From: an uncultured Spirochaetota bacterium
GTDB lineage: Bacteria; Spirochaetota; Spirochaetia; JAFGXN01
Direction of reading: 5' to 3'
DNA length: 64,000 nucleotides
NCBI GenBank assembly: GCA_944390005.1
Contig: CALXOJ010000009.1
Location: forward strand, 1-64,000
Shown: positions 1 through 12,728 of the stretch, one piece after another
Numbering within the stretch: position 1 is the stretch's first letter
Layout of the letters: each line of letters opens with the position of its first letter
Notes under the pieces: generated by a model
Told to the model about the DNA's origin: nothing
The model's input: the letters and a program-made list of their open reading frames with translations, nothing else
Databases searched by the model: none
Made by a program: the position numbers and the translations under genes

Positions 1-2
1 TT

Positions 3-167
3 CACACGATGACTGATGGGCCTATAACAAAATTTGACCTGAAAAAGGGTCGGTACCGCGGGTACTGGTGCATAGCGTCTGCTGCCCTGGTAAAGGCGCT
101 GGGGCTTGACGACACGGAACTGCACGACTGCAAGTATTATCCGCGCGATATGGCGCATTTTTGCTGA
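3..167 (+). CDS. C-terminal end of a PoNi-like (DUF1911) immunity protein, partial
   Basis: The open frame enters from the left edge and ends at TGA 165-167, leaving 54 residues. The readable end includes YRGYWCIASAALVKALGLDD, followed by a cysteine, YYPRD and a final HFC. A 'GYW...aLgLDD...YYP.D..H' ending is how I recall the C-terminal domain of PoNi/DUF1911 proteins, which neutralise PoNe-type nuclease toxins of polymorphic toxin systems. That match is from memory of the family, not from a search. The start and any toxin gene lie upstream, outside the window. Codon use is GC-rich, like the next gene. Confidence 0.5.
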   Translation, partial: HTMTDGPITKFDLKKGRYRGYWCIASAALVKALGLDDTELHDCKYYPRDMAHFC

Positions 168-180
168 AAGATAAAAATGG

Positions 181-215
181 AGGAGGTTTAAATGAGATTG
201 TTCTCATATTTATAG
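181..215 (+). other. Strong Shine-Dalgarno with a 7-codon stub ORF
   Basis: A perfect AGGAGG at 181-186 sits five bases before ATG 192. The frame reads only seven codons (MRLFSYL) before TAG at 213-215. It lies 24 bases after the immunity-like gene. A ribosome-binding site this strong before so short a frame suggests the start of a gene whose body has been lost. A leader peptide is possible, but no attenuator follows. Confidence 0.35.
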
Positions 216-229
216 TTTTCAGACGCCTC

Positions 230-400
230 TTCCGCAGCACCTTTCCGAAGGCGCGAGGGATTGAAGCGGAAATGAGCTGCCGACGGAGAGAAGGCGCAGG
301 GCAAAGCGGCAGCTTTGCCGCGGTGAAGGCGCAGGGAGGCTGCGAATTGCAGCGGAAAGCCCGGCGCCCCGCAGGGGCGCGCGCCCGAAAAACGAAAAGG
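230..400. repeat. GC-rich palindromic intergenic patch (REP-like)
   Basis: This stretch is far richer in GC than its surroundings and has no convincing gene. It holds a direct repeat GAAGGCGCAGGG (291-302 and 325-336). It also holds an inverted repeat GGCAAAG...CTTTGCC around 300-319 and a strong hairpin GGCGCCCC-GCA-GGGGCGC near 363-381. The clustered hairpins resemble a repetitive extragenic element. I saw no second copy in the window, so copy number in the genome is unknown. Confidence 0.45.
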
Positions 401-429
401 TTGACAGGAAGACAGGTTTTTTTTACTAT
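401..429 (+). promoter_or_regulatory. Promoter of the peptide-binding lipoprotein gene, probably leaderless
   Basis: TTGACA (401-406), a 17-base spacer and TACTAT (424-429). The -10 box ends six bases before ATG 436, so transcription should begin at or next to the start codon. There is no Shine-Dalgarno sequence. Confidence 0.6.
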
Positions 430-435
430 GGCGGC

Positions 436-2247
436 ATGAAGGGCTTTTTTTTGGCGGTTTTGGCGGCGGCTGCAGTTTCATGCGGTCCGAAAAAGGAAGT
501 GTCGGCGCAGGAGGCGGCGGCTTTGCGGGCGGAAGCCCAAAACGGCTTTCTGTCGCAGATGACGGTTCGACCGGGCGGCGGAGAGCGGAAAATCGGACAT
601 TACGGTGGGGTTTGGAACGAGGCGATGGAGTCGGACCCGTCGACATTCAATTTGACGCGCATCAATGATTTGCCGACGAGCGCTGTGATGAGTTACCTTT
701 GTCCGCATTTGTTGGAATATGATGTTTATGAAAAAAAATGGTCGGGGCACATTGCCGATTTTGAAGTCCGCGTTGATGAGCAGCGTCAGGTCACCGAGGT
801 TGATTTCACATTTAAGTCGGGTTTGTGTTGGTTTGTGCCGAAGACAGGCGAAACAATCGCATTCAATGCCGACGACGCTGTTTTTTGGATTGAGGAAATC
901 ATCAAAGATCCGGCTTTGAATATGGCTGAATATTCGGGGATGTTTGTGCCGATGCCGGACGGGAGCCGCGGCGAAATTACCGCGGAGAAGCTGACCGATT
1001 CGTCGTTTCGGTTGACTTTTCCGCGGATTGTCGCCGATCCTTTGTTGGCGGCGAATCTGCAAATCGGTCCGCGGTTTCTTTATGAGGCGGCAAAGAAGGA
1101 AGGCGGCTCTCAACGTGTAATTGATTTTATTACCATCAATACCGATCCGAGCACCGTTCCGACTGCCGGACCGTTTTACATCAGCCGTTACACGCCCGGA
1201 CTGGTTTTAGAGCTGCGGCGCAACCCGCACTATTTTTTGGAAGACAGCGTCGGTCAGCGGCTGCCCTACCTTGATACGGTGCGTTTTTCGTTCGTTTCCA
1301 ATCCTTCAACGCAGCTGCTGCTTTTCAAAAACGGCGAACTGGAAACGCTGTCGGTGATGCCTGCCGATTTGGATTCCGTGCTGTCCGAACAGGAAAAAGG
1401 CGGTTACGAGGTGATTAACGGCGGTCCGGCGCCGACAGCGGCTTTTATTACGTGGAATCAAAACCCTAACCGCAGTGCGCTGCCTCACAAGTATTATAAT
1501 TGGTTTTCCCAGAAAGAGTTCCGGCAGGCGATGAGCTGCCTTCTGGATCGGGAAAAAATCATCCGCAATGTTTACCGTGGTTTAGCGAAACCGGTCACCC
1601 ACTTTTTTCATGAAGCCTCGCCGGTGTTTGAGGAGAGCCTTGTTTTCAACTATTTTTACAATCCGGAAAAAGCGGCCGCGCTGTTGACGTCTATCGGAAT
1701 GGAGAAGGACTCTGCCGGCGTTTTACGCGATAAAGAGGGCAACGCCGTCGCGTTTGACTTTTGGATTTCCGCCGACAATCCGCAGCTGTCGGACATTGCC
1801 AACATTTATGCCGATGATTTGAAAAAACAGGGAATTGCGATGGAAATCCGCACGGTCGATTTTGCGAAAATGGTAGACTCCCTCCTCTACTCGTTCGACT
1901 GGCAGTCGCTTTCGATTGCGCTTTCCGGCAGCAACCTTTTTCCGAGTCAAGGCGTCAACGTTTGGCCGAGCGGCGGCAATCTGCACATGTGGTATCCGAA
2001 TCAGAAAACGCCGGCAACCGAATGGGAAGCCGAAATCGACCGTCTGTATACGGAAGCCTCCTACACCGCGGATGCCGAAAAGGCGAAAGCGTTGTGGGAC
2101 CGTTATCAGTCGCTGATCTGGGAGCAGGTGCCGCTGGTTTATCTGGTGCGGCCGTATGCGTTTTTGGCCGTTCGCAATAAATGGGAAAACGTTACTTTTG
2201 ATGCGCTCGACAGTTACGATATCCGCTACGTTTTTGAGAAGGAATAG
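436..2247 (+). CDS. Periplasmic oligopeptide-binding lipoprotein (SBP family 5)
   Basis: The 603-residue product begins with a short signal peptide ending in the lipobox AAVSC, so it should be a lipid-anchored envelope protein. The rest has the length and style of family-5 extracellular solute-binding proteins (OppA/DppA type). These include an early GGVWNEAMESDPSTFN segment, AFNADDAVFWIEEI, and a mid-protein PTAGPFYISRYTPG stretch typical of the ligand-binding fold. They capture peptides or similar solutes for an ABC importer. No permease or ATPase gene is adjacent, so it is an orphan binding protein here. The start at 436 is fixed by the signal peptide. It follows a leaderless-type promoter and is followed after 12 bases by a broken MATE gene. 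Confidence 0.85.
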   Translation: MKGFFLAVLAAAAVSCGPKKEVSAQEAAALRAEAQNGFLSQMTVRPGGGERKIGHYGGVWNEAMESDPSTFNLTRINDLPTSAVMSYLCPHLLEYDVYEKKWSGHIADFEVRVDEQRQVTEVDFTFKSGLCWFVPKTGETIAFNADDAVFWIEEIIKDPALNMAEYSGMFVPMPDGSRGEITAEKLTDSSFRLTFPRIVADPLLAANLQIGPRFLYEAAKKEGGSQRVIDFITINTDPSTVPTAGPFYISRYTPGLVLELRRNPHYFLEDSVGQRLPYLDTVRFSFVSNPSTQLLLFKNGELETLSVMPADLDSVLSEQEKGGYEVINGGPAPTAAFITWNQNPNRSALPHKYYNWFSQKEFRQAMSCLLDREKIIRNVYRGLAKPVTHFFHEASPVFEESLVFNYFYNPEKAAALLTSIGMEKDSAGVLRDKEGNAVAFDFWISADNPQLSDIANIYADDLKKQGIAMEIRTVDFAKMVDSLLYSFDWQSLSIALSGSNLFPSQGVNVWPSGGNLHMWYPNQKTPATEWEAEIDRLYTEASYTADAEKAKALWDRYQSLIWEQVPLVYLVRPYAFLAVRNKWENVTFDALDSYDIRYVFEKE

Positions 2248-2259
2248 CAGGAATCCGAT

Positions 2260-2890
2260 ATGAACATTCCGGCCGAAAAACAGCAGACACTGCGTCTGAG
2301 AGAAAGTCCGATTTCGCAACTTCTTTTCCGTTTTTCTTTTCCAGCAATCATGGCGATGCTGGTTCTGGCGCTGTACAACATGGTCGACCGCATTTTTATC
2401 GGCAACTATCCGCCGACGGGAGCCAACGGTCTGGCGGCCATTGCCGTATCGTTTCCGTTCCTGCTGGTGCTTCTGGCATTCGGACTGCTGATCGGCGTCG
2501 GCGGCGCCACGCTTTATTCTCTCCGCATGGGAGAGCGGAAACACGAAGAAGCCGAGCGGACACTCGGAAACGCTTCTTTCGCCGCGCTGGCTATTGCTGT
2601 TCTTTACGTTGCCGTTACATGGATCTTTACGGAACCGCTGCTGCGTTTGTGCGGTGCCGATACGACCGTGATGCCTTATGCCGTTGATTATATGAAAATT
2701 ATTATACCGTTTTCATTTTTCAGTTTCAGGCATTTGTTTACAACAACATGATGCGGGCCGACGGCAGTCCGACAATCGCCATGGCTGTCATGCTGGCCGG
2801 CGCCGTTACGAACATTATTCTGGATCCGGTTTTTATTTTCGGGTTCGGTTGGGGAATGGAAGGCGCCGCCTCGATCGGTTTGAAAAGAGA
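2260..2890 (+). pseudogene. MATE-family exporter, frameshifted and truncated
   Basis: The first frame (2260-2751) encodes the N-terminus of a MATE multidrug/Na+ antiporter, with NMVDRIFIGN and a glycine-rich GLLIGVGG helix. Near 2725 the match moves to the +1 frame, where QAFVYNNMMRADGSPTIAM and ILDPVFIFGFGWGMEGAA continue the family sequence. The similarity stops near 2880, about 205 residues into a protein that is normally about 450. The sequence beyond is unrelated and AT-rich. The gene has therefore suffered both a frameshift and loss of its 3' half. A complete MATE gene is present at 37421-38776. The frameshift could be a sequencing error, but the truncation could not. Confidence 0.85.
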
Positions 2891-2964
2891 AAATTACCAA
2901 TCACAATTTTTTCTCCGAGAGCACCTGTCTCTGATACGAAAACAGATTGAAAATCGCGTTCTAT

Positions 2965-3024
2965 ACTCATTTTGAACGAGTGAATATCATTAACATATTA
3001 TTTTTACTCATTTTTAATGAGTAA
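2965..3024. promoter_or_regulatory. Two ACTCATT-type palindromes
   Basis: 2965-2981 reads ACTCATT-TTG-AACGAGT, with one mismatch. 3004-3024 is a perfect palindrome with arms TTACTCATTT and AAATGAGTAA around a central T. Both share the ACTCA/TGAGT core with the palindrome over the promoter of the lipoprotein operon at 6803-6817. They lie between the truncated MATE gene and the operon's terminator. They may be protein-binding sites, but the regulator is unknown. Confidence 0.4.
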
Positions 3025-3043
3025 TTGAATCGGAACTCTATTT

Positions 3044-3072
3044 AAAACAGGCATCCTTTAAAGGATGCCTGT
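3044..3072 (-). terminator. Terminator of the LRR lipoprotein operon
   Basis: Inverted repeat AGGCATCCTT/AAGGATGCCT (3049-3070). Read on the minus strand it is followed by TGTTTTAAAT. It sits 32 bases after the stop of the downstream lipoprotein gene. Confidence 0.65.
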
Positions 3073-3103
3073 CTGTTTCCATCTTATTTTCCGATATAAT
3101 CAA

Positions 3104-5146
3104 TTACCGCGGAACCAATTCGGGAAAATTGCCTCCGGTCGAAACAAACTTTAACGCAAAATCTGGACCTAAAGCACTGTTCATTTCATCGACCGCCATG
3201 CTCCAGGTCAGAGAAGTTCCGTCTACTTTCAATCCGGTATCTTCGCCTGTCGCATTACCGCTCCAGTAGCAGGCAGTTATTGATTCTGCCCGATCGGCAC
3301 TGATTCCCTTCTGATATGTCCGTTCTTCCGAAGATTGGGTCGTCATCTCTGCGTCGGCACAATTGGCGGTAAAATGATATTGGTATCCGCAACCGCTAAT
3401 TCCTCCGATATATTTTCCGCCGGTTATCTTTCCGGAAAATAAACACCCTTTCAAATTGCGTGGATTACCTAAACCCATCGTTTCTCCCACGATGCCTCCC
3501 GCATAGAAGCTGTCTGGCGCATTAATCTCCCCGATAAAAGAGCAACCTTCAATATTTGCAGCATTGCTACTTCCGACAATTCCGCCGACGGCTCTTGAAG
3601 AGTTGTTACTGTTTGACAGGGTACCCGTAACGTGACAGTTGCTGATTCTGCCGTATTGGGAAATACCGGCAATACTTCCTATGTCGGCATCGCGTGTTGA
3701 TGAATACGAACTGCGTATATCGACATCTTTTAAAATCAGATTTTCGATTACTCCTCCTTTTGCGTCAGAAAACATTCCGACTGCTTTATCGGTTTCGGTT
3801 CCGACAATCGTCATATTTGCAATCGTGTGACCGTTCCCGTTAAAAGTAAAAGATTGCCATTCGGAAACCATCATCGGTGTCCAGTTTGATTCTCCTTCAG
3901 CCGGTTTTGCCAAAATGATATCAGATACCAGAATGCATCCTCCGCCGTTGGCAGCCCAAGCGCGTAATCCTTCCTCGTTAAAAACAGTATAAGTGTTCGT
4001 TTCTCTGTCGTAAATGAAACCGGACGCAGGCTCAACGGCCACCGTGCATTGCGCCGTATACCCGCCTTCGGCAGCTGTTGCCGTAATCGTTGCCAATCCC
4101 GGTCCGACAGGTGTAATGTGACAGCCGCCTCCCGTCTTTTCGCTGATCTCAATAATCCCCGTTCCCGGTTCGACCGACCACGTCAACTGCTTGTTTTCGG
4201 CATAGTCCGGAAAAAAGGCAATCGTCAATACGGCTTCCTCTCCCGTTTTCATATCGATCTGTTTTTGATCCGGTTCGATCTTTTCGAGCCGCGTTCCGGG
4301 AATCACCGCAAAGACATTCTTATTTTCCGCAATTGGCTTCCACTGAGTCCATTGTTCCGTCTGCCGATTGTTAATGGTCAAAGTCAGTTCCGTCTCTTTT
4401 CCGGATTCGTCCGTCTGCATTCCGCAGTATAATTCGGTTAAAGATGCCGATTCACTCACTGAAAGTGAGGTTAACCGGTTTGAAAAACACTTTAAAGTGT
4501 GTAAATTCGTCAAATTACTCACTTTAAGTGAGGATAATTGATTGTTTTCACATTCCAATCGGATTAATGTTTCCGGAAGCGTTTCGGGCAATTCTGTCAA
4601 ATTATTATCGGCACAGAAGAGTTCTTCCAGCCCGCCGAAATAACGAATCGCGGACAGATCGGTCAGACCGGCTCCGACCATAAAAAGAGAGCGGACGGCC
4701 TCCATTTTCCGACGGTTTTCGGCTGTCAGCGGAACGGTTCCGTCTTCGTTTTTCTGCCAGTCAATCGGCGGTTCGGCGCCGGATTCGACGGCCGCAATCA
4801 GAATCTTATCTTTGATAGACGATTCGACGGTGACCGTACAGTTTCCGCTTTTTTCGCTGCCGGTACCGGCAGCCGTGACCACGGCACGCCCGTCTTTTAA
4901 CGCAGTCACTTTGCCGTTTTCGTCGACAGAGACCACTCCGTCCCCTTCCGTCACACGCCATTCTACCGTTTTAATGCCTGCCTGCTCCGGTAAAACAATC
5001 GCCTTTAAAACCGAAGATTCGCCGACCGCCATCAATAATGATGACGGTTCGACGGTAACCGATTCAATCGGAATTGTTTCTTCGCAGGCAAACAGAAACA
5101 AAACAGACATAGCGGTTACAATCTGTTTCACTATGGAATTCTTCAT
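3104..5146 (-). CDS. Surface lipoprotein with Big_2, LRR and GLUG-type repeats
   Basis: 680 residues. The signal peptide ends in the lipobox LFAC, so the protein is probably lipid-anchored and surface exposed. In order: a bacterial Ig-like Big_2 domain at about 25-110 (SVTVEPSSLLMAVGES...), a short leucine-rich-repeat block at about 150-260 (LEELFCADNNLTELPETLP), a second Big_2-like domain at about 290-370, and a C-terminal region at about 375-620. The last region holds repeated GGIVG and GGISG motifs typical of GLUG repeats and beta-helix adhesins. Such proteins usually mediate adhesion or protein-protein contact; no enzyme signature is visible. It lies two bases after the related gene 5149-6774, so the two are cotranscribed, and its own terminator follows. 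Confidence 0.8.
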   Translation of the reverse strand: MKNSIVKQIVTAMSVLFLFACEETIPIESVTVEPSSLLMAVGESSVLKAIVLPEQAGIKTVEWRVTEGDGVVSVDENGKVTALKDGRAVVTAAGTGSEKSGNCTVTVESSIKDKILIAAVESGAEPPIDWQKNEDGTVPLTAENRRKMEAVRSLFMVGAGLTDLSAIRYFGGLEELFCADNNLTELPETLPETLIRLECENNQLSSLKVSNLTNLHTLKCFSNRLTSLSVSESASLTELYCGMQTDESGKETELTLTINNRQTEQWTQWKPIAENKNVFAVIPGTRLEKIEPDQKQIDMKTGEEAVLTIAFFPDYAENKQLTWSVEPGTGIIEISEKTGGGCHITPVGPGLATITATAAEGGYTAQCTVAVEPASGFIYDRETNTYTVFNEEGLRAWAANGGGCILVSDIILAKPAEGESNWTPMMVSEWQSFTFNGNGHTIANMTIVGTETDKAVGMFSDAKGGVIENLILKDVDIRSSYSSTRDADIGSIAGISQYGRISNCHVTGTLSNSNNSSRAVGGIVGSSNAANIEGCSFIGEINAPDSFYAGGIVGETMGLGNPRNLKGCLFSGKITGGKYIGGISGCGYQYHFTANCADAEMTTQSSEERTYQKGISADRAESITACYWSGNATGEDTGLKVDGTSLTWSMAVDEMNSALGPDFALKFVSTGGNFPELVPR

Positions 5147-5148
5147 AC

Positions 5149-6774
5149 TTATTGCTCCTGAACCTCGACACCGCGGTTAAATTCCTGCCAGTAAGATTTC
5201 CATGCACTATTTTGAGTGGCTGTCACCCGCAGAACAGTATTTAAACCTCCTATATCCTGCCCTCCGCAACGGAAAAAAGAAGAACTGGTTAATTTGGTCA
5301 GTGTCGTGATATCCAGCTCTTTTATCTTGTTCTTCTCGCAATCCAGATAGGTCAGTCCTGTTAATTTCGATACATCCAGTGAAGCCAGACGGTTTTTCGC
5401 ACAGGCCAGTTTTTTCAATGCGGTACCGATTCCGTTCATGTCCAAAACCGACAGCTGATTATCGTAACAGCTCAGCACCTGTAAAGAGGACAGTCCGGTC
5501 ACTTTCAAAGAAGTCAGACGGTTGGAATGGCAATAGAGTTCTTGCAGCTTTTGTAAAGCGGTTACATCCAATGCGGTAAACCGGTTAAAGCTGCAGTCCA
5601 AATAAGTCAGATTTGTCAGGGAAGCAACCGACAGAGAGGACAGCTGCGTTGCGGCGCATTCCAGTTTTGTCAGAGTTTCATTCAAAAAATTCACATCCAG
5701 AACTGTCAGGGGATTATCGCTGCAGTCGAGCTCTGTCAGTGTTGCCGGAAGAACGGTTTCATCAAGGCGTTCCAACCGGTTGTTGCTGCAGTCCAATGTT
5801 TTCAGATACGCTGAAGGTAATTTCAGATTTTCGGAAGAAATCTGATTACCGCTGCAGTCCAATGTTTCCAGGTTATGCAGATTGCCGACATCCAAAGCCG
5901 TCAGCCGGTTATCCGAGCAGTTTAAAGATGTCAGACCGGTAAAATATTCGATGCCGTCAAACGAAGACAGGTTTTTTCCGACGATCGATAAAGTTTCTAC
6001 TTTTTTAACGATTTCCGTATTGGAGAGATTCATCCGTACGGTTCCGTCTGCTTCTTTTTGCCACGGCTGGTGCCAAGGAAGAAGCGCATTTTCAACCGCG
6101 TCAATAAAAGCCAAATCGGCAATCACACCTTCCCGAATGACCTTAACCAGACAGGTGGCCGTTTCACCGCCGGCTTCGACAGCCACAGTTGCCGTACCGG
6201 TCGCTTTTGCCGTAATACGTCCTTTCTGATCGACTGTCACAATGCTGTCACCGGATGCCAGACTCCAGACCACCGTGGCGGCTGCTTCCGCCGGTTCGAC
6301 CGTTGCCTGCAACGTAACCGAGTTGCCCACCCCCAGCGTCACCGACGAACGGTCGAGCGTGACGGACTCGACCGCCGTCGACCCGCCTGTTCCGCCGCTG
6401 CCTCCGCCGTTACCGACCGTCACGGTACACGAAGCCGTTTTACCGCCGTCGACCGTTTCCGCCGTGACGGTTGCCGTGCCGGCTGCCATCGCCGTCACTT
6501 TGCCGTAACCGTCCACCGTGACGGCCGTTCCCTGCGTAACGCTCCAAAGCACCGCGTTCACGGAAGCGTCTGCCGGTTCCACTTCCGCTTTTAAAACCGC
6601 CGTTTCGCCGATGCCCAGCGACAGTGCCGTCGGCGTGACTTTGATATTTTCGACAGCTACGGCTCCGCCGCACGACATGGCCGTTAAGACGGCTGCTGCT
6701 GTCAACGCTTTTAATACAGAAAAACAAACGAACTGTTTCCGTTTCCGAACAGAAAAACTTCCCATAAACTCCAC
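5149..6774 (-). CDS. Surface lipoprotein with two Big_2 domains and a treponeme-type LRR array
   Basis: 541 residues. A basic N-terminus and hydrophobic stretch end in the lipobox TAMSC, so it is a predicted lipoprotein. Two Big_2 domains follow (about 42-120 and 133-212) separated by a Gly/Ser-rich linker (GGGSGGTGG). Residues about 225-520 form a long LRR array with units such as LTSLNCSDNRLTALDV, the cysteine-containing type known from treponeme LRR adhesins. It is the first gene of a two-gene operon with 3104-5146, whose product has the same Big_2-LRR design. A promoter with a palindrome at the expected start site precedes it. A role in adhesion or surface recognition is inferred from architecture only. 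The start could be one of two nearby ATGs (6774 or 6765). Confidence 0.82.
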   Translation of the reverse strand: MEFMGSFSVRKRKQFVCFSVLKALTAAAVLTAMSCGGAVAVENIKVTPTALSLGIGETAVLKAEVEPADASVNAVLWSVTQGTAVTVDGYGKVTAMAAGTATVTAETVDGGKTASCTVTVGNGGGSGGTGGSTAVESVTLDRSSVTLGVGNSVTLQATVEPAEAAATVVWSLASGDSIVTVDQKGRITAKATGTATVAVEAGGETATCLVKVIREGVIADLAFIDAVENALLPWHQPWQKEADGTVRMNLSNTEIVKKVETLSIVGKNLSSFDGIEYFTGLTSLNCSDNRLTALDVGNLHNLETLDCSGNQISSENLKLPSAYLKTLDCSNNRLERLDETVLPATLTELDCSDNPLTVLDVNFLNETLTKLECAATQLSSLSVASLTNLTYLDCSFNRFTALDVTALQKLQELYCHSNRLTSLKVTGLSSLQVLSCYDNQLSVLDMNGIGTALKKLACAKNRLASLDVSKLTGLTYLDCEKNKIKELDITTLTKLTSSSFFRCGGQDIGGLNTVLRVTATQNSAWKSYWQEFNRGVEVQEQ

Positions 6775-6802
6775 CTCTTCCTCTCATAAAAATGTTTTAA
6801 AA

Positions 6803-6851
6803 TGAGTGACACACTCACTACAAATATAATTTATGTTCGTTTTTCTGTCAA
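6803..6851 (-). promoter_or_regulatory. Promoter and candidate operator of the LRR lipoprotein operon
   Basis: On the minus strand, TTGACA (6846-6851), a 17-base spacer and TATATT (6823-6828). A 15-base palindrome, TGAGTGTGTCACTCA (6803-6817), covers the expected transcription start. A palindrome at +1 is a typical repressor site. The same TGAGT/ACTCA core recurs at 2965-3024, at the far end of the operon. Confidence 0.6.
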
Positions 6852-6854
6852 TAT

Positions 6855-6891
6855 AAAAAAAGCGGACGTTCATATTCCGTCCGCTTTTTTC
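6855..6891. terminator. Bidirectional rho-independent terminator
   Basis: AGCGGACG (6861-6868) pairs with CGTCCGCT (6878-6885), flanked by an A run on one side and a T run on the other. On the minus strand it ends the HAD phosphatase transcript and insulates the LRR operon promoter beside it. Confidence 0.85.
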
Positions 6892-6920
6892 TCTTTTTTC
6901 GGATATAACCCGGTTATCTG

Positions 6921-7745
6921 TTACCGGGCAAAATCCCCGACATCATTGATAACAATTTTCGGCCTGTAAGCATAGGTGTCGATTTCTTCGGGAGAGGTGA
7001 CGCCGGAGAGGACGAGGACGGTATCCATTTCGGTTTCGACGCCGGCGAGGATATCGGTATCCATGCGGTCACCGATAATCGCCGTTTCTTCCCGAACACA
7101 GCCGAGTTTTTTCAAAGCGGTGCGCATCATCAACGGATTCGGTTTTCCGACAAAGTAGCATTTTTTCCCCGTTGCCAGCTCGATCGGTTTGACCAGTGCT
7201 CCCGTCGCCGGCATAATTCCCTTTTCGACCGGACCGGTAATATCGGGGTTGGTTCCGACCAGCCGGGCGCCGCGTCGAACCAGATTGACGGAATGAGTCA
7301 GTACCTCCAAATTGTAGGTTCGGGCCTCTCCGACTACCACATAATCGGGATTGACATCATTGATTGTATATCCGACATTGTAAAGAGCATTAATCAGTCC
7401 GGCTTCTCCGATAATATAGGCACTGCCGCCCGGTTTTTGGGACGCCAGAAATTCGGCTGTCGCCAGAGCACTGGTATAAAAATGTTCTTTATCGACATCG
7501 ATTCCCAACCGGTGCAGTTTGTCAGCCAATTCCTGCGGAGATCGTTCGGAGCTGTTGGTGAGAAACAGGAATTTTTTCTTTTCCCGTTTCAGCCACTCGA
7601 TAAAATCTTTGGCGCCGGGAATCAGGCGATTGCCGTGATACAGAACACCATCCATATCGCAGATAAAGGCGTTTTTTCGGCGAATGGTGTCGAAGAGATT
7701 TTGATCAACCGTAATGCGTTTAAAGTCTTCATTGGGATTTTTCAT
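6921..7745 (-). CDS. HAD-superfamily class IIA phosphatase (NagD-like)
   Basis: The 274-residue product carries the HAD motifs in order. Motif I is FICDMDGVLYHG, with the nucleophile and acid/base aspartates. Motif II is FLTNSSERS. A substrate-specifying cap lies in the middle, GKPNPLMMRTAL holds the motif III lysine, and GDRMDTDI is motif IV. This layout belongs to the NagD/phosphoglycolate-phosphatase-like group of small-phosphate hydrolases in the cytoplasm; the true substrate cannot be read from sequence. Its ATG overlaps the TGA of the upstream gene (ATGA), so the two are translationally coupled. A terminator follows. Confidence 0.85.
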   Translation of the reverse strand: MKNPNEDFKRITVDQNLFDTIRRKNAFICDMDGVLYHGNRLIPGAKDFIEWLKREKKKFLFLTNSSERSPQELADKLHRLGIDVDKEHFYTSALATAEFLASQKPGGSAYIIGEAGLINALYNVGYTINDVNPDYVVVGEARTYNLEVLTHSVNLVRRGARLVGTNPDITGPVEKGIMPATGALVKPIELATGKKCYFVGKPNPLMMRTALKKLGCVREETAIIGDRMDTDILAGVETEMDTVLVLSGVTSPEEIDTYAYRPKIVINDVGDFAR

Positions 7746-8902
7746 ATTTTATAAATTCTCCGAAATTTTTCCAAGTCAAAATAGTGATCGAACATGGCTT
7801 TGACTTTGGCGATTTTATCATCGTCGTAGATTTGCAATTTTGTATTTTCAGCGGCTTTTCTGACTGTTGTCTCAATTTCACTTGTTGTCAGCGGAACGAA
7901 AAAGAACGGCAGATTCTGTTTTTCAAGCAGCTTTGCTTTTTCCTCTAAAACCTCCCGAGGCTGTTTGTCACTGCAAGAGAGGATGATGCCGCCGAGTTTA
8001 TCTTCAAGAACACTGTTGAATTCCAAAATCTTCTTTAACCTTCTTGTCGAAGCCGCATTCAGAAGAACAATATCCCCGGCATGAAGATACTCTTCCGGTT
8101 CGAAAATTTGATGAGGAAGAGTGATGATTTTTACCGAACGCGACGGTTTCTCCCACTGTTTTTCACTGACAATTTCCGTTAAATACGCATTGGGAAATTT
8201 GCGGACCAACAGCGCCATTGACGGCTGATTCAAAATATCGTCTTCGGGAAAATAGCCGAGCACCGACAGTGAGCGACGGCGGCGGTAAATGTCGTTGATA
8301 TTTTTTTCGGAGAGGTATCCTTTCATCTCATCCAATTTTTGCGGAAAAAGTTTATTGAAAATCACACCGCGGAAATCGGCGCCGTTGACGGTGAAGTAAC
8401 TCAAATCGGGCGAAAGCATATCGAGGCTTTTACCCAATCCGCCGCCGGCCAGATAAAGAACGGGAGCTTTCAGCATTTTGCTGACGTCGGCATTCGATAA
8501 TCCGATGAGGCTGCCAACGCCGGGGTGTCCGGTTCCTTCAGCGATAATGATTTTTTTATCTTTCATTTTTTCGACGGAGTCGGCAATTTTCTGCGCATAC
8601 TCTTTTGTCAAATGCGATTTATGCTTTGAAGTCAAATACTGTTTCGTGACGCCGGAAGCAATTTGAACAGGAGAAACATAGCGTAGGTCGAGATTGGGCA
8701 GACAGAATTTTTTGATGACAGCCGCGTCTTTATCGATTTTTTTTCCATCCTCGATTTCGACGGTTTCTTGACCGACCGGTTTAATGTAGCCGATGTCGTC
8801 GGGATCGAAAATTCGGCTCAACGAATGGATCATGCCGAGCGAGGTGGTTGTTTTTCCGGCATGCTGACGAAAGCCGGCAATATAAACAATTTTCTGTTTC
8901 AT
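7742..8902 (-). CDS. BioD-like P-loop ATPase (AAA_26; phosphotransacetylase N-terminal-like)
   Basis: 386 residues from the ATG at 8902. The N-terminus has a dethiobiotin-synthetase-type P-loop (AGFRQHAGKTTTSLGM), then IGYIKPVGQE and IIAEGTGHPGVGS, as in the CobB/BioD-like domain that precedes phosphotransacetylase or stands alone with a DRTGG domain. No phosphotransacetylase catalytic domain is present, so this is the stand-alone form, often proposed to be a sensor or regulator rather than an enzyme of biotin synthesis. It ends in a four-base overlap with the HAD phosphatase gene, which suggests a linked task. The longer frame from 8950 is less likely because the P-loop normally lies within the first 20 residues. 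Confidence 0.7.
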   Translation of the reverse strand: MKQKIVYIAGFRQHAGKTTTSLGMIHSLSRIFDPDDIGYIKPVGQETVEIEDGKKIDKDAAVIKKFCLPNLDLRYVSPVQIASGVTKQYLTSKHKSHLTKEYAQKIADSVEKMKDKKIIIAEGTGHPGVGSLIGLSNADVSKMLKAPVLYLAGGGLGKSLDMLSPDLSYFTVNGADFRGVIFNKLFPQKLDEMKGYLSEKNINDIYRRRRSLSVLGYFPEDDILNQPSMALLVRKFPNAYLTEIVSEKQWEKPSRSVKIITLPHQIFEPEEYLHAGDIVLLNAASTRRLKKILEFNSVLEDKLGGIILSCSDKQPREVLEEKAKLLEKQNLPFFFVPLTTSEIETTVRKAAENTKLQIYDDDKIAKVKAMFDHYFDLEKFRRIYKI

Positions 8903-8976
8903 TCTTTCCCTCTTGCCGATATAATATATAAAAGGAAAAATTTTTTCCATCGGTTTTTCGTATTTCGGAGTTTTTT

Positions 8977-10005
8977 ATGAATTCTTTACAAAAACAGAAG
9001 CCGCCGGCCGCTGTTTCCAAACGCAAAGAGAGGGGCGAGGCAAAAATTCTCTATCACCAGTACTCGAAAGAAAAATACGCCTGCCGAATAGACTTACCGG
9101 AACTCAGTGAACTGCCGGAACCCGATAATGTGTGGATCGAATGCGGCAGCGGCATTTCTCGGGAACTCACTGACCGATTGGGAAAACGATTCGGCTTCAA
9201 CAAACTGATTCTCGAAGACGCCGCCGTCGTGCCTCAGCCGCCGAAACTGGACGAATATGACGACAGCTGTTTTTTAACGCTCAACGCCGTCGATTGGAAC
9301 GAGCAGGAACACTGTATCGAAGAAAATCAAATGTCTTTTTTATGGAAAAAACGACTGCTGATTTCGCTCTCCGAAGCAGCCAATAGCGATTTAAACTTTT
9401 TGTTAACAAGATTAACCGACCCCTCTTCCAACGTACGTACCCTCGGATCTGATTATTTACTTTTTTCGATTCTCAATTTTTTGATTGACAATGCGTACAA
9501 AACGGCAAAGAGCATGCTTGACTACTACGATGATTTGGAAGAACAGCTTTTTTTCTCCGATTTTGACGACATTTCGAAGCTTCACGCATTTCGGAAACAA
9601 GTGACACGGCTCTCCCGTTCATTGATGCCTCTCCTTGTTATTCTGAACAAAATCTGTCAACCGGAATTTTCATTCGCTTCTTCAAAAACCAAAAAACTGT
9701 TTGCTAATTTGACAAACAACGTCACACAGGCAGTCAACCTCACCGAAAAACTGCGCGATTCGTTTTCTTTTCTAATTGACTCTTTGGATTCGAAAAACGC
9801 GCAATCGGTCAATCGCATTATGAAGGTTCTGACTATCGTTTCAACTGTTTTTATGCCGTTGTCATTTATTGCCGGTGTTTATGGGATGAATTTCACTGAT
9901 ATGCCGGAGCTGCGTTGGAAATTCGGCTATCCGTTTGCCCTTTTGCTGATGACTGCCGTGACACTCGGAATGATTATTTATTTTAAAAAGAAAAAATGGT
10001 GGTAA
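8977..10005 (+). CDS. corA: CorA-family magnesium/divalent cation channel
   Basis: 342 residues. There is a long cytoplasmic N-terminal domain and two C-terminal membrane helices. The first helix ends in the CorA signature YGMNF (in FIAGVYGMNFTDMPELRW), which forms the selectivity loop; the second ends in a basic tail (FKKKKWW). CorA forms pentamers in the inner membrane and imports Mg2+, sometimes Co2+ or Ni2+. A CGGAG Shine-Dalgarno precedes the start. No Mg2+ riboswitch fits in the short leader. The next gene begins immediately after the stop. Confidence 0.9.
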   Translation: MNSLQKQKPPAAVSKRKERGEAKILYHQYSKEKYACRIDLPELSELPEPDNVWIECGSGISRELTDRLGKRFGFNKLILEDAAVVPQPPKLDEYDDSCFLTLNAVDWNEQEHCIEENQMSFLWKKRLLISLSEAANSDLNFLLTRLTDPSSNVRTLGSDYLLFSILNFLIDNAYKTAKSMLDYYDDLEEQLFFSDFDDISKLHAFRKQVTRLSRSLMPLLVILNKICQPEFSFASSKTKKLFANLTNNVTQAVNLTEKLRDSFSFLIDSLDSKNAQSVNRIMKVLTIVSTVFMPLSFIAGVYGMNFTDMPELRWKFGYPFALLLMTAVTLGMIIYFKKKKWW

Positions 10006-10007
10006 AA

Positions 10008-11051
10008 ATGCAGAATTCGCTTAAAAACCGCATTATTATTTATATGAAAACAAGAAATATTTTCCCGGTTTTGATTTTGGTTCTGTTGCTTTCGTGCAGC
10101 TGTTTTGTGCCGGCCGAATCGCTTTCCATTTTGTCGTACAACGTTCAAAATCTTTTTGACGACGTTGCCGACGGCGGAGAATATCACAATTACAATCCCG
10201 AATCCGGTCAATGGGGTTCGGAAATGTTTCAAAACAAACTGAACAATTTGGCAGAGGTGATTCGAGAAACCGATGCCGACATCGTTCTTTTATTTGAAGT
10301 CGAAAATCAAAACTGTATTGACTCTCTTGTTCGATTCTATTTACCGACGCGCGGGTATCGTTTTAATTACTGTCTGGATCAGGAAAATTCCAATATTAAC
10401 TCCGCCGTGATTTCACGCATTCCGGTAAACGAAGTCAAAACCCACCGACTTGAACTCGGCCGCAGTATTTTACGCAATATTAATGAAGTCTTTTTCGAAT
10501 ACCGCGGAATCGAATTCGAAATCATCCTCAACCATTGGAAGAGTAAACTCGGCGGCGATGAAGAGACCGAAGAAAAACGCAAACTGTCGGCTCAAACGGT
10601 GAGACGGCTGATTCAAAATAACCCGCTGCCGGTGATTGTGGCGGGCGACTTAAACGAAGATCTGTATGAATTCAAAAAACAGGAGTTTCGTTACCCGACA
10701 GCACTGGTTTCGAAAAAGAACCTGCACCGTATTCCGAAAGAAGAACGGAACCGCTGTTTGGTTTTTTCCGAAAACAAAGAAGAAGTAAAAGGCGATGTTT
10801 TGTATTCGATTTGGAGCGAACTGCCGCCGGAAAAAGGCAGCTATTTTTACAGCTCCGAATGGGAAAAAATCGATCACATTTTTGTCAATGAACCGATTAT
10901 CGATCCGACCCAAAAACCGAATTTAATTCGCTGCGAAATTCCGGAATACGATTTTATGGTCAACCGGAACGGAAAACCGCGTTCGTTTTCAACCAAAACA
11001 TTTACCGGAGTTTCGGATCACTTCCCGCTTTTGATTGAATTGGAATTTTAA
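10008..11051 (+). CDS. Secreted endonuclease/exonuclease/phosphatase-family lipoprotein
   Basis: About 347 residues. A hydrophobic N-terminus is followed by cysteines in a lipobox-like LLLSCSC, so export and probably lipid anchoring are predicted. The catalytic fold is shown by LSILSYNVQNLFDD (the N of the EEP family), LLFEVENQ (metal-binding Glu), VIVAGDLNE (GDLN motif) and the terminal GVSDHFPLLIE (SDH motif). Enzymes of this family cut DNA, RNA or phosphate esters; secreted versions often salvage phosphate or degrade extracellular DNA. Start choice is uncertain: ATG 10008 has GGTGG before it, ATG 10044 gives a more typical signal peptide, and 9996 would overlap corA. Confidence 0.8.
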   Translation: MQNSLKNRIIIYMKTRNIFPVLILVLLLSCSCFVPAESLSILSYNVQNLFDDVADGGEYHNYNPESGQWGSEMFQNKLNNLAEVIRETDADIVLLFEVENQNCIDSLVRFYLPTRGYRFNYCLDQENSNINSAVISRIPVNEVKTHRLELGRSILRNINEVFFEYRGIEFEIILNHWKSKLGGDEETEEKRKLSAQTVRRLIQNNPLPVIVAGDLNEDLYEFKKQEFRYPTALVSKKNLHRIPKEERNRCLVFSENKEEVKGDVLYSIWSELPPEKGSYFYSSEWEKIDHIFVNEPIIDPTQKPNLIRCEIPEYDFMVNRNGKPRSFSTKTFTGVSDHFPLLIELEF

Positions 11052-11068
11052 AACTCTCTGCGAGGCGG

Positions 11069-11977
11069 TTAAAAACCGCCTCCCAACAGTTCGATCAATC
11101 GATTTAAATCATCGAGCGAATAATAATCGATGACGATTTTTCCCCGTTTTTCCGTTCCGTTGATAAGAACGTGAGTTCCCAGCCGTTCCATCAACTGCGA
11201 TTCAACGGCGAGAATATCCTCCGATTTGGACGGTTTTCCGGCGGCCGCTGTCGGTTCCGCCTTTTTTTCGTCTTTTGCCAGAAGTTTTTCAATATCGCGG
11301 ACGCTTAAACCTTTTGAGATAATCATCTGATAAAACTTCCGCATTTCCGATTCTTTTTTTAACCCGGCCAAACTCCGTGCATGTCCCGCTGTAATTTTAT
11401 TTTCTTCCAATCCGGTTAAAATGTCTTCAGGTAATTTCAGTAAACGGACGGCATTGGTGATTGTCGAACGCTTTTTTCCGACTTTTTCGGCAACCTGCTC
11501 CTGCGTATAACCGTAACGGCGCATCAACGCCTGATAAGCGCGCGCTTCTTCCAGTGGAGTTAAATCTTCACGCTGAATATTTTCAATAACCGCAATTTCA
11601 TCCGCTTTTTCGTCAGTCAACGACATTTCCACTGCCGGAATGGTTTTCAAGCCGGCTTTTACCGCAGCGCGATAACGCCGTTCTCCGGAAACAATCATAT
11701 ACCGCGACTCGCGACTGACAACCAAAATCGGCTGCAGAACGCCGACTTGCCGAATCGAATCGGCCAGTTCGTTTAAAGACTCTTCATCAAAATATTTTCT
11801 CGGCTGATCGGTATAGGCAAAAATATCATCGAGCGCAATTTCGCGAATACCGCCGTTTTGGGCCGCCTCTTCTTCCCACTTTTTTACGGAAGGAGCCGCT
11901 GCCTTCGGTTTCAGATTTTCGATCCCTTTTCCTAATCCCGATCGTTTCATTCTTGCAGGACGATTTTCATTTGCCAT
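11069..11977 (-). CDS. parB: Chromosome-partitioning protein ParB
   Basis: 302 residues. The ParB/Spo0J N-terminal domain is evident from DIFAYTDQPRKYFDEESL, the CTP-binding motif GERRYRAA and ENIQREDLTPLEEARAY. A helix-turn-helix follows (YTQEQVAEKVGKKRSTITNAV), and then a C-terminal dimerisation domain. ParB loads on parS and spreads as a CTP-dependent clamp, organising the origin for segregation. Two perfect parS sites lie 2.5 kb away at 14440 and 14491. The gene overlaps the end of parA by 11 bases, the usual parAB operon. A hairpin around 11062-11082 overlaps its stop but has no T tract. Confidence 0.96.
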   Translation of the reverse strand: MANENRPARMKRSGLGKGIENLKPKAAAPSVKKWEEEAAQNGGIREIALDDIFAYTDQPRKYFDEESLNELADSIRQVGVLQPILVVSRESRYMIVSGERRYRAAVKAGLKTIPAVEMSLTDEKADEIAVIENIQREDLTPLEEARAYQALMRRYGYTQEQVAEKVGKKRSTITNAVRLLKLPEDILTGLEENKITAGHARSLAGLKKESEMRKFYQMIISKGLSVRDIEKLLAKDEKKAEPTAAAGKPSKSEDILAVESQLMERLGTHVLINGTEKRGKIVIDYYSLDDLNRLIELLGGGF

Positions 11978-12728
11978 CGTTCATATACTCCTTTGCCAAA
12001 TTTTCGTAACTCTTTGCTCCAAGACATAAACTGTCGTATAAATTAATCGGAACGCCATGAGACGGCGCTTCTGCCAACTTGACATTCCGAGGAATGATGG
12101 TTTTAAAAAGCCGATCCGGATAGTTTTGATTCAAATTATCCACAACGTCACGGGAAAGAAGGGTTCTTGAATCGTACATTGTAAACAGTATACGAGGAAA
12201 TGTTAATTTCGGGTTAGTGGTATTCCGCACCATTTCAATCGTATCCAATAACTGTGACAAACCTTCCAACGCAAAATATTCACATTGAAGCGGAACAATC
12301 ACCTCATCGGCTGCCGTCAACGCGTTAATAGTCAGTACTCCCAATGCGGGCGGACAGTCAATAAAAATATAATCGTAAACGCCGCGCCATTCATCCATCG
12401 CTTCTTTTAAAACAAATTCCCGATCATCAACCGAAATCAATTCGACAGCTCCTCCCGCCAAATTGATATCGGTCGGACAAACAAAAAGATTGTCAACAGG
12501 CGTTTCGTAAACACATTCATTTGCATCGGTCTGCCCTGCCAGCAATTCGTAAATACCCTTCTCAACGTCGGCAATACCGACATTTGAAGAAAGATTTCCT
12601 TGTGGATCAAAATCGATTAAAAGAACTTTTTTCCCCGCGTCGGCTAAATACGCACCGAGATTTACTGTTGTCGTCGTTTTTCCGACGCCGCCCTTTTGAT
12701 TGACAAATGCCGTAATTTTTGTTTTCAT
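11967..12728 (-). CDS. parA: Chromosome-partitioning ATPase ParA (Soj)
   Basis: 253 residues from ATG 12728. It carries the deviant Walker A KGGVGKTTT immediately after the start, a Walker B-type segment (YIFIDCPPALG) and LLIDFDPQGN. ParA binds DNA non-specifically as an ATP dimer and moves ParB-parS complexes. The longer upstream frame is rejected because the Walker A lysine normally lies within about 20 residues of the start. The gene is first in the parAB operon and has no Shine-Dalgarno; its -10 box ends ten bases before the ATG. Confidence 0.96.
   Translation of the reverse strand: MKTKITAFVNQKGGVGKTTTTVNLGAYLADAGKKVLLIDFDPQGNLSSNVGIADVEKGIYELLAGQTDANECVYETPVDNLFVCPTDINLAGGAVELISVDDREFVLKEAMDEWRGVYDYIFIDCPPALGVLTINALTAADEVIVPLQCEYFALEGLSQLLDTIEMVRNTTNPKLTFPRILFTMYDSRTLLSRDVVDNLNQNYPDRLFKTIIPRNVKLAEAPSHGVPINLYDSLCLGAKSYENLAKEYMNDGK

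Follow-up and report, generated by a model that had tools for sequence, protein, structure and literature searches.

Regulators of the Fur/PerR/Zur (with 7-1-7 boxes), MarR, TetR and GntR types act at dimer operators, which are dyads of about 15 bp. NarL-type regulators recognise the heptamer TACYYMT, and such heptamers may form inverted pairs. In looping repression of the LacI/DeoR type, operators lie both at the promoter and downstream of it.

The palindromes described here lie at both ends of an operon of LRR lipoprotein genes, within a stretch of 64,000 nucleotides (the window) of a genome of 1.95 Mb (G000, hereafter this genome), which was compared with its sister species (G001) and with a genome of the same family (G002). 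They resemble the first group of systems in the 7-1-7 layout of CTCATTT-N-AAATGAG, in the position of the dyad over a promoter and in the small number of targets; to our knowledge, the half-site CTCATTT fits no consensus operator. The string TACTCAT, present at 3005-3011 and at a second gene with the element (C2), fits the NarL-type heptamer, whereas the leading T is absent at the LRR promoter and at a third locus (C1) and the spacing is different. Sites at the promoter and downstream are shared with LacI/DeoR-type looping, but the distance here is 1.9-3.8 kb and takes in the whole operon.

An operator with a small regulon is a known kind of system, and the motif string itself has no match in the literature searched: six spellings of it gave none, which is weak evidence because motifs are rarely printed in that form. 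Judged by title, none of the papers listed (8 of 12) for the regulation of BspA-like or Listeria-Bacteroides repeat proteins was on this subject. We consider it likely, from the sequence comparisons given below, that the palindromes are operators of one dedicated, predicted transcription factor whose regulon is very small.

The LRR lipoprotein operon and its promoter

The features of the operon and its surroundings are listed in Table 1. The lipobox of gene 1 was identified by eye and that of its copy in the sister species by pattern, and the counterpart of gene 2 was missing at the corresponding place in that species. The inverted repeat taken as the probable terminator was not returned by a terminator scan that requires a loop of 3-8 bases plus a T run. 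An Rfam search of positions 1-12000 of the window gave 0 matches at the gathering score, and none that would indicate a structured RNA leader.

The earlier note on this DNA had proposed that a palindrome covers the predicted start site of the operon, and this was borne out. The palindrome TGAGTGACACACTCA at 6803-6817, which reads TGAGTGTGTCACTCA on the minus strand, is an exact 5-N5-5 dyad and starts 5 bases after the TATATT that ends the promoter match, so that the expected start point is covered. In the sister species, the copy of this 5' element has a single changed base in the non-symmetric spacer, in addition to differences in the flanks.

Table 1. Features of the LRR lipoprotein operon, of its putative operators and of other lipoprotein genes
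Feature	Position	Strand	Description
Predicted sigma-70 type promoter of the LRR operon	6823..6851	minus	TTGACA-17-TATATT; 11/12 match, best of the region; consensus only
Composite operator-like element, 5' end	6787..6823	minus	Half-sites TAGTGAG / CTCATTT / degenerate third; contains the palindrome at 6803-6817
3' palindrome ACTCATT-N3-AATGAGT	3006..3022	no strand	ACTCATTTTTAATGAGT; perfect, extension giving arms of 9; aligned counterpart in G001
Imperfect 3' palindrome ACTCATT-TTG-AACGAGT	2965..2981	no strand	ACTCATTTTGAACGAGT; one mismatched arm pair
Operon gene 1	5149..6774	minus	541 aa; two Big_2 domains and LRR_4 repeats; lipoprotein-like signal
Operon gene 2	3104..5146	minus	680 aa; Big_2, LRR_4, GLUG; lipoprotein-like signal by eye
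Probable operon terminator	3047..3072	minus	Perfect 13-bp inverted repeat
MATE transporter pseudogene, convergent neighbour	2260..2887	plus	Loses its frame a little before 2751; truncated at about 2887
G/C runs before other lipoprotein genes	L071:644-656, L162:4252-4263, L165:4422-4438, L175:3408-3420 (G000); L181:2589-2631 (G001)

The palindromes beyond the terminator

Two ACTCATT palindromes had also been described beyond the operon terminator, and both were confirmed, one perfect and the other imperfect, 24 bases (3006-3022) and 65 bases (2965-2981) past the inverted repeat. After the imperfect one, the string TCATTA at 2987-2992 could by eye be a degenerate third half-site, off the 11-bp step described below; the aligned counterpart of this palindrome in the sister species is an element with three half-sites.

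When the two species were compared by blastn, positions 2888-5651 of the window gave no alignment except for a 91-bp piece (73%) in gene 1, and the flanks of this block were about 96-97% identical. The block, which comprises part of the LRR region of gene 1, gene 2 and the 3' spacer, is absent or unaligned in the sister species and represents a local replacement of a surface-protein segment. Nearly the whole MATE pseudogene is also missing at the corresponding place in the sister species, which retains a 26-bp remnant with its end at the same breakpoint.

In a global alignment, both 3' palindromes face two palindromes of the sister species in the same order, with the caveat that the palindromes may have steered the aligner. 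The preservation of this order amid otherwise unaligned DNA would be hard to obtain without selection. Both species have sites at both ends of the operon, across a span of about 3.8 kb in this genome and 1.9 kb in the sister species, and the 3' sites constitute a footprint at a location unusual for operators.

The 3' pair might instead be the control region of something else, either a short antisense transcript, which would begin within the palindromes and end at the terminator hairpin of the operon in its opposite reading, or the relic promoter of a lost gene, an explanation that we regard as possible though doubtful. In the sister species, the first 3' palindrome is overlain by a TTTAAA-18-TATAAT match that reads towards the operon and has a terminator-like hairpin in front of it; the window shows, by eye, a weaker TTAACA-17-TTTAAT at the equivalent position (2990-3018), and the spot is unstable, as seen from the MATE pseudogene and the absence of gene 2 from the sister species. 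However, the sequences of the would-be transcript are not conserved between the species and have no Rfam match, and the promoter matches are to the consensus only, of a kind that AT-rich palindromes readily yield.

A common array of alternating half-sites

The TGAGT/ACTCA core, to which the likeness of the two ends had originally been attributed, proved to belong to a larger design. In a gap-free alignment of 11 sites from both genomes over 37 columns, copies of the half-site CTCATTT/AAATGAG follow one another at 11-bp intervals in alternating orientation, and TGAGT-N5-ACTCA and ACTCATTT-N-AAATGAGT are overlapping readings of this same array, which unites the 5' and 3' palindromes. Since the 11 sites and their register were chosen by hand, the alignment is illustrative rather than an independent test. 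Three half-sites are clear at the C2 gene and its sister-species counterpart (C19), at the C1 gene and its counterpart (C3) and at the second 3' site of the sister species; in the LRR promoter array the third half-site is degenerate, and the remaining 3' sites and a further locus of the sister species (C18) have two only. Relative to the gene, the element of the LRR operon is oriented opposite to that of the C2 gene, a difference that operators may show.

Other loci with the element

With at most two mismatches to the 17-mer ACTCATTTNAAATGAGT, all five places in the sister species were accounted for by the two 3' sites of the LRR operon and by sequence ahead of the C19, C18 and C3 genes, and four of the six in this genome were at corresponding loci (the LRR 3' pair, C2 and C1). 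The places C2:45919 and C3:65421 of this genome, within the same threshold, were coding. The targets encode LRR_4 plus Big_2 (LRR operon), Flg_new (C2) and Flg_new plus LRR_5 (C18) domains; the C1/C3 target is a gene of 145 aa, the product of which had no Pfam hit in this genome. The C18 gene, a third lipoprotein gene with a site, was found in the sister species only. At the corresponding place in this genome (C2, about 91.1 kb) there was no match for it, as only the first 628 bases of the 921-base query aligned, and the approximately 40 bases between the neighbouring genes contained no site; the gene and its site are both missing there.

At the C2 gene, the sole promoter match found (9/12, consensus only) is spanned by the element from -35 to -10. 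At the C18 gene, the element lies just upstream of the -35 of a 10/12 match, also to the consensus only, whereas the scan at C1 gave only a 9/12 match that overlaps the element, with a TATAAT further down by eye. In the same-family genome, no site was found either exactly or with one mismatch.

The dyad recurs above chance at the promoters of functionally related, unlinked genes, and the element is kept at the same promoters (LRR operon, C2/C19 and C1/C3) in this genome and in the related species; as it occurs in two species only, the independent observations are few. The earlier suggestion of a dedicated regulator, which is still a predicted one, gains good support from this composite element at the promoters of unlinked LRR/Listeria-Bacteroides-repeat lipoprotein genes in two species.

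The matching palindromes at both operon ends could also be recombination or boundary sites of a mobile or invertible surface-protein cassette, a reading that would also suit the failure of the 3' part of the operon to align by blastn between such similar flanks. This is very unlikely: C2, C19 and C18 are each preceded by a site but, at the thresholds used, lack one at the other end, the sites lie at promoter regions, and the divergent block starts inside gene 1, at 5651, and not at the 5' palindrome.

Frequency of the element compared with chance

As a genome-wide motif, the bare core TGAGTN5ACTCA was rejected, being near background. Exact copies were found at 2 places in 1.95 Mb, compared with 1 for the backward control, and with one mismatch the window had 3, the expectation being 0.86, and 9 of 100 shuffles reached 3. 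The second exact core of this genome, at C2:96636, lies in front of the Listeria-Bacteroides-repeat lipoprotein gene, and its match extends well past the core. The extended form TAGTGAGT-N5-ACTCATTT, with 16 fixed bases, occurred exactly at 2 places in this genome and 2 in the sister species, where the loci correspond (the LRR operon and the C2/C19 lipoprotein gene); exact copies were absent from the same-family genome, and none at 0 or 1 mismatch appeared in ten simulated genomes. Genome-wide, the core alone does not exceed chance, but the extended 16-base element does.

For the 17-mer, 6 matches with up to three mismatches were found in the window against 0.56 expected, and 0 of 100 shuffles reached 6, although three of these matches (4517, 21304 and 58558) fall within coding frames and were discounted, and the one at 6791 belongs to the 5' element. 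Genome-wide, up to one mismatch gave 2 places in this genome, 3 in the sister species and 0 in the same-family genome, with none in the ten simulated genomes; up to two mismatches gave 6, 5 and 2, respectively, against 0.7 simulated. At up to three mismatches the count in this genome was 22 against 17.9 simulated (0.7 + 17.2) and 4 for the backward control, with 14 against 7 in the sister species and 16 against 28 in the same-family genome; the simulations used the average composition of the window, and AT-rich spacers raise the background. The 16 places of this genome with exactly three mismatches comprised 12 in open frames, one overlapping a hisD-like frame at its start (C1:162659; gene name by eye), one in the 5' element (C9:6791) and two intergenic.

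Over 37 bp, the LRR and C2 elements are identical at 26 bases, for which the expectation is 0.1 matches per genome. The bases shared with the LRR 5' element numbered 24 for C1 (4.5 matches expected), 21 for the second of the sister species' 3' sites, 17 and 19 for the 3' sites of the window and 18 for C18. By this measure alone only C2 stands out, and the remaining sites belong to the set by virtue of the array's other dyad.

A profile made from the 11 sites was run on 14 genomes, and every match with E < 0.008 was a training site, the E-values for these being circular because the profile was built from the sites that it then finds. The next matches were in G016 (0.0084) and G002 (0.013); among other genomes of the class, the best ones in G016, G002 and G021 were inside open frames and were rejected. 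The everted 19-mer AATGAG-N7-CTCATT with two mismatches gave 87 matches against 42 for the backward control in this genome, 60 against 38 in the sister species and 207 against 184 in the same-family genome, and by these counts is too loose to name more targets. In the window, palindromes ACTCAC..GTGAG at 4455-4469 and 4517-4533 were in the LRR-coding part of gene 2 and were attributed to the period of the LRR repeat.

That the sites are short AT-rich palindromes without function, as the near-background counts of the bare core and of the three-mismatch 17-mer genome-wide might suggest, is hardly credible in view of the extended element, its conservation in two species and the class of genes that it precedes.

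Predicted regulator and proposed mode of action

If the palindromes are operators, a trans-acting, probably dimeric factor would bind the CTCATTT half-sites, which alternate one helical turn (11 bp) apart; CTCATTT-N-AAATGAG and TGAG-N7-CTCA are two views of the array, in which as many as three half-sites are present. In the LRR operon this array runs from directly after the -10 box over the start point, and at the C2 gene across the -35 to -10 span. Arrays at either position, in either orientation, fit a repressor operator. From this we infer protein binding and repression as the simplest mode at both loci, in which the bound protein would exclude RNA polymerase or block its escape until a signal is received. 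At the C18 gene, with the array just upstream of the -35 match, either activation or repression would be possible. Repression as the main action of the factor is, in our estimate, somewhat less certain than the existence of the operators.

The 3' pair would be bound by the same protein, which there could either anchor a loop with the 5' site or control a short antisense transcript. A wider scheme, in which one regulator acts through the 11-bp-phased array on a select subset of LRR and Listeria-Bacteroides-repeat lipoprotein genes and needs a second operator cluster past the terminator, kept by selection through the replacement of the 3' half of the operon for switching from both ends (by a loop or a regulated antisense start), seems unlikely to hold in full. 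Looping between the 5' and 3' sites, as proposed before, is likewise unlikely; the one observation that speaks for it is the retention of sites at the two ends in both species, despite the shorter span in the sister species.

Two weak leads point to the regulator. A three-mismatch copy at C1:107045 (L069:1546-1562), with the same letters in the sister species, precedes an XRE-plus-cupin regulator gene by 63 bases; as about 17 three-mismatch matches are expected by chance, it is only a weak lead to an autoregulated XRE-cupin regulator. In G008, another genome of the class, the best profile match (L192:1501-1527, E 0.06, below trust level) overlaps an HPr gene at its end and lies before a Fur-family gene that reads away, and this neighbour, together with the 7-1-7 layout, gives a weak lead to a Fur-type regulator. 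As a lead only, the intergenic place C2:19388 (C1:206664 in the sister species; profile E 0.05-0.07), upstream of a gene for a 344-aa HD-domain protein, may be a further target. The element offers a defined 37-bp probe for fishing out the regulator of this surface-lipoprotein subset.

Size of the gene set and other surface-protein genes

Profile matches to PF02368 and PF09479 (E <= 0.001) were found in 26 distinct open frames of this genome, 16 and 10, respectively, by our own tally from 28 and 17 rows, with one of the 26 found only below the curated cut-off. The element stands over three of these 26 Big_2/Flg_new frames, under two promoters, and it is therefore not a general surface-protein switch. 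The proposed control of surface-protein expression would thus apply to a subset of lipoprotein genes and was too broad as originally worded, as one of the targets is, moreover, the 145-aa gene without a Pfam hit.

In at least four other lipoprotein genes of this genome, runs of at least 12 G or C lie at or near the promoter (Table 1), as expected of phase-variable expression. They resemble the poly-G tracts of treponeme tpr genes; a search for literature linking LRR lipoproteins, poly-G and phase variation in Treponema found none. The bacterium may vary its surface in two ways, by a regulator and by random switching at homopolymer tracts.

Inside the start of another lipoprotein gene (L164:4013-4023, G000:C7) there is a run of 11 C, read as G on the coding strand, which is a possible translational on/off tract. 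In the sister species, a 72-bp tetranucleotide repeat (L180:2229-2300, G001:C16) lies at a contig end upstream of a Listeria-Bacteroides-repeat lipoprotein gene, and a short version of about 3 units precedes two genes of this genome in L171. That region (G000:C3:227500-234000) holds a tandem pair of lipoprotein genes that have identical N-termini and share about 250 bases of upstream sequence, a recent duplication.
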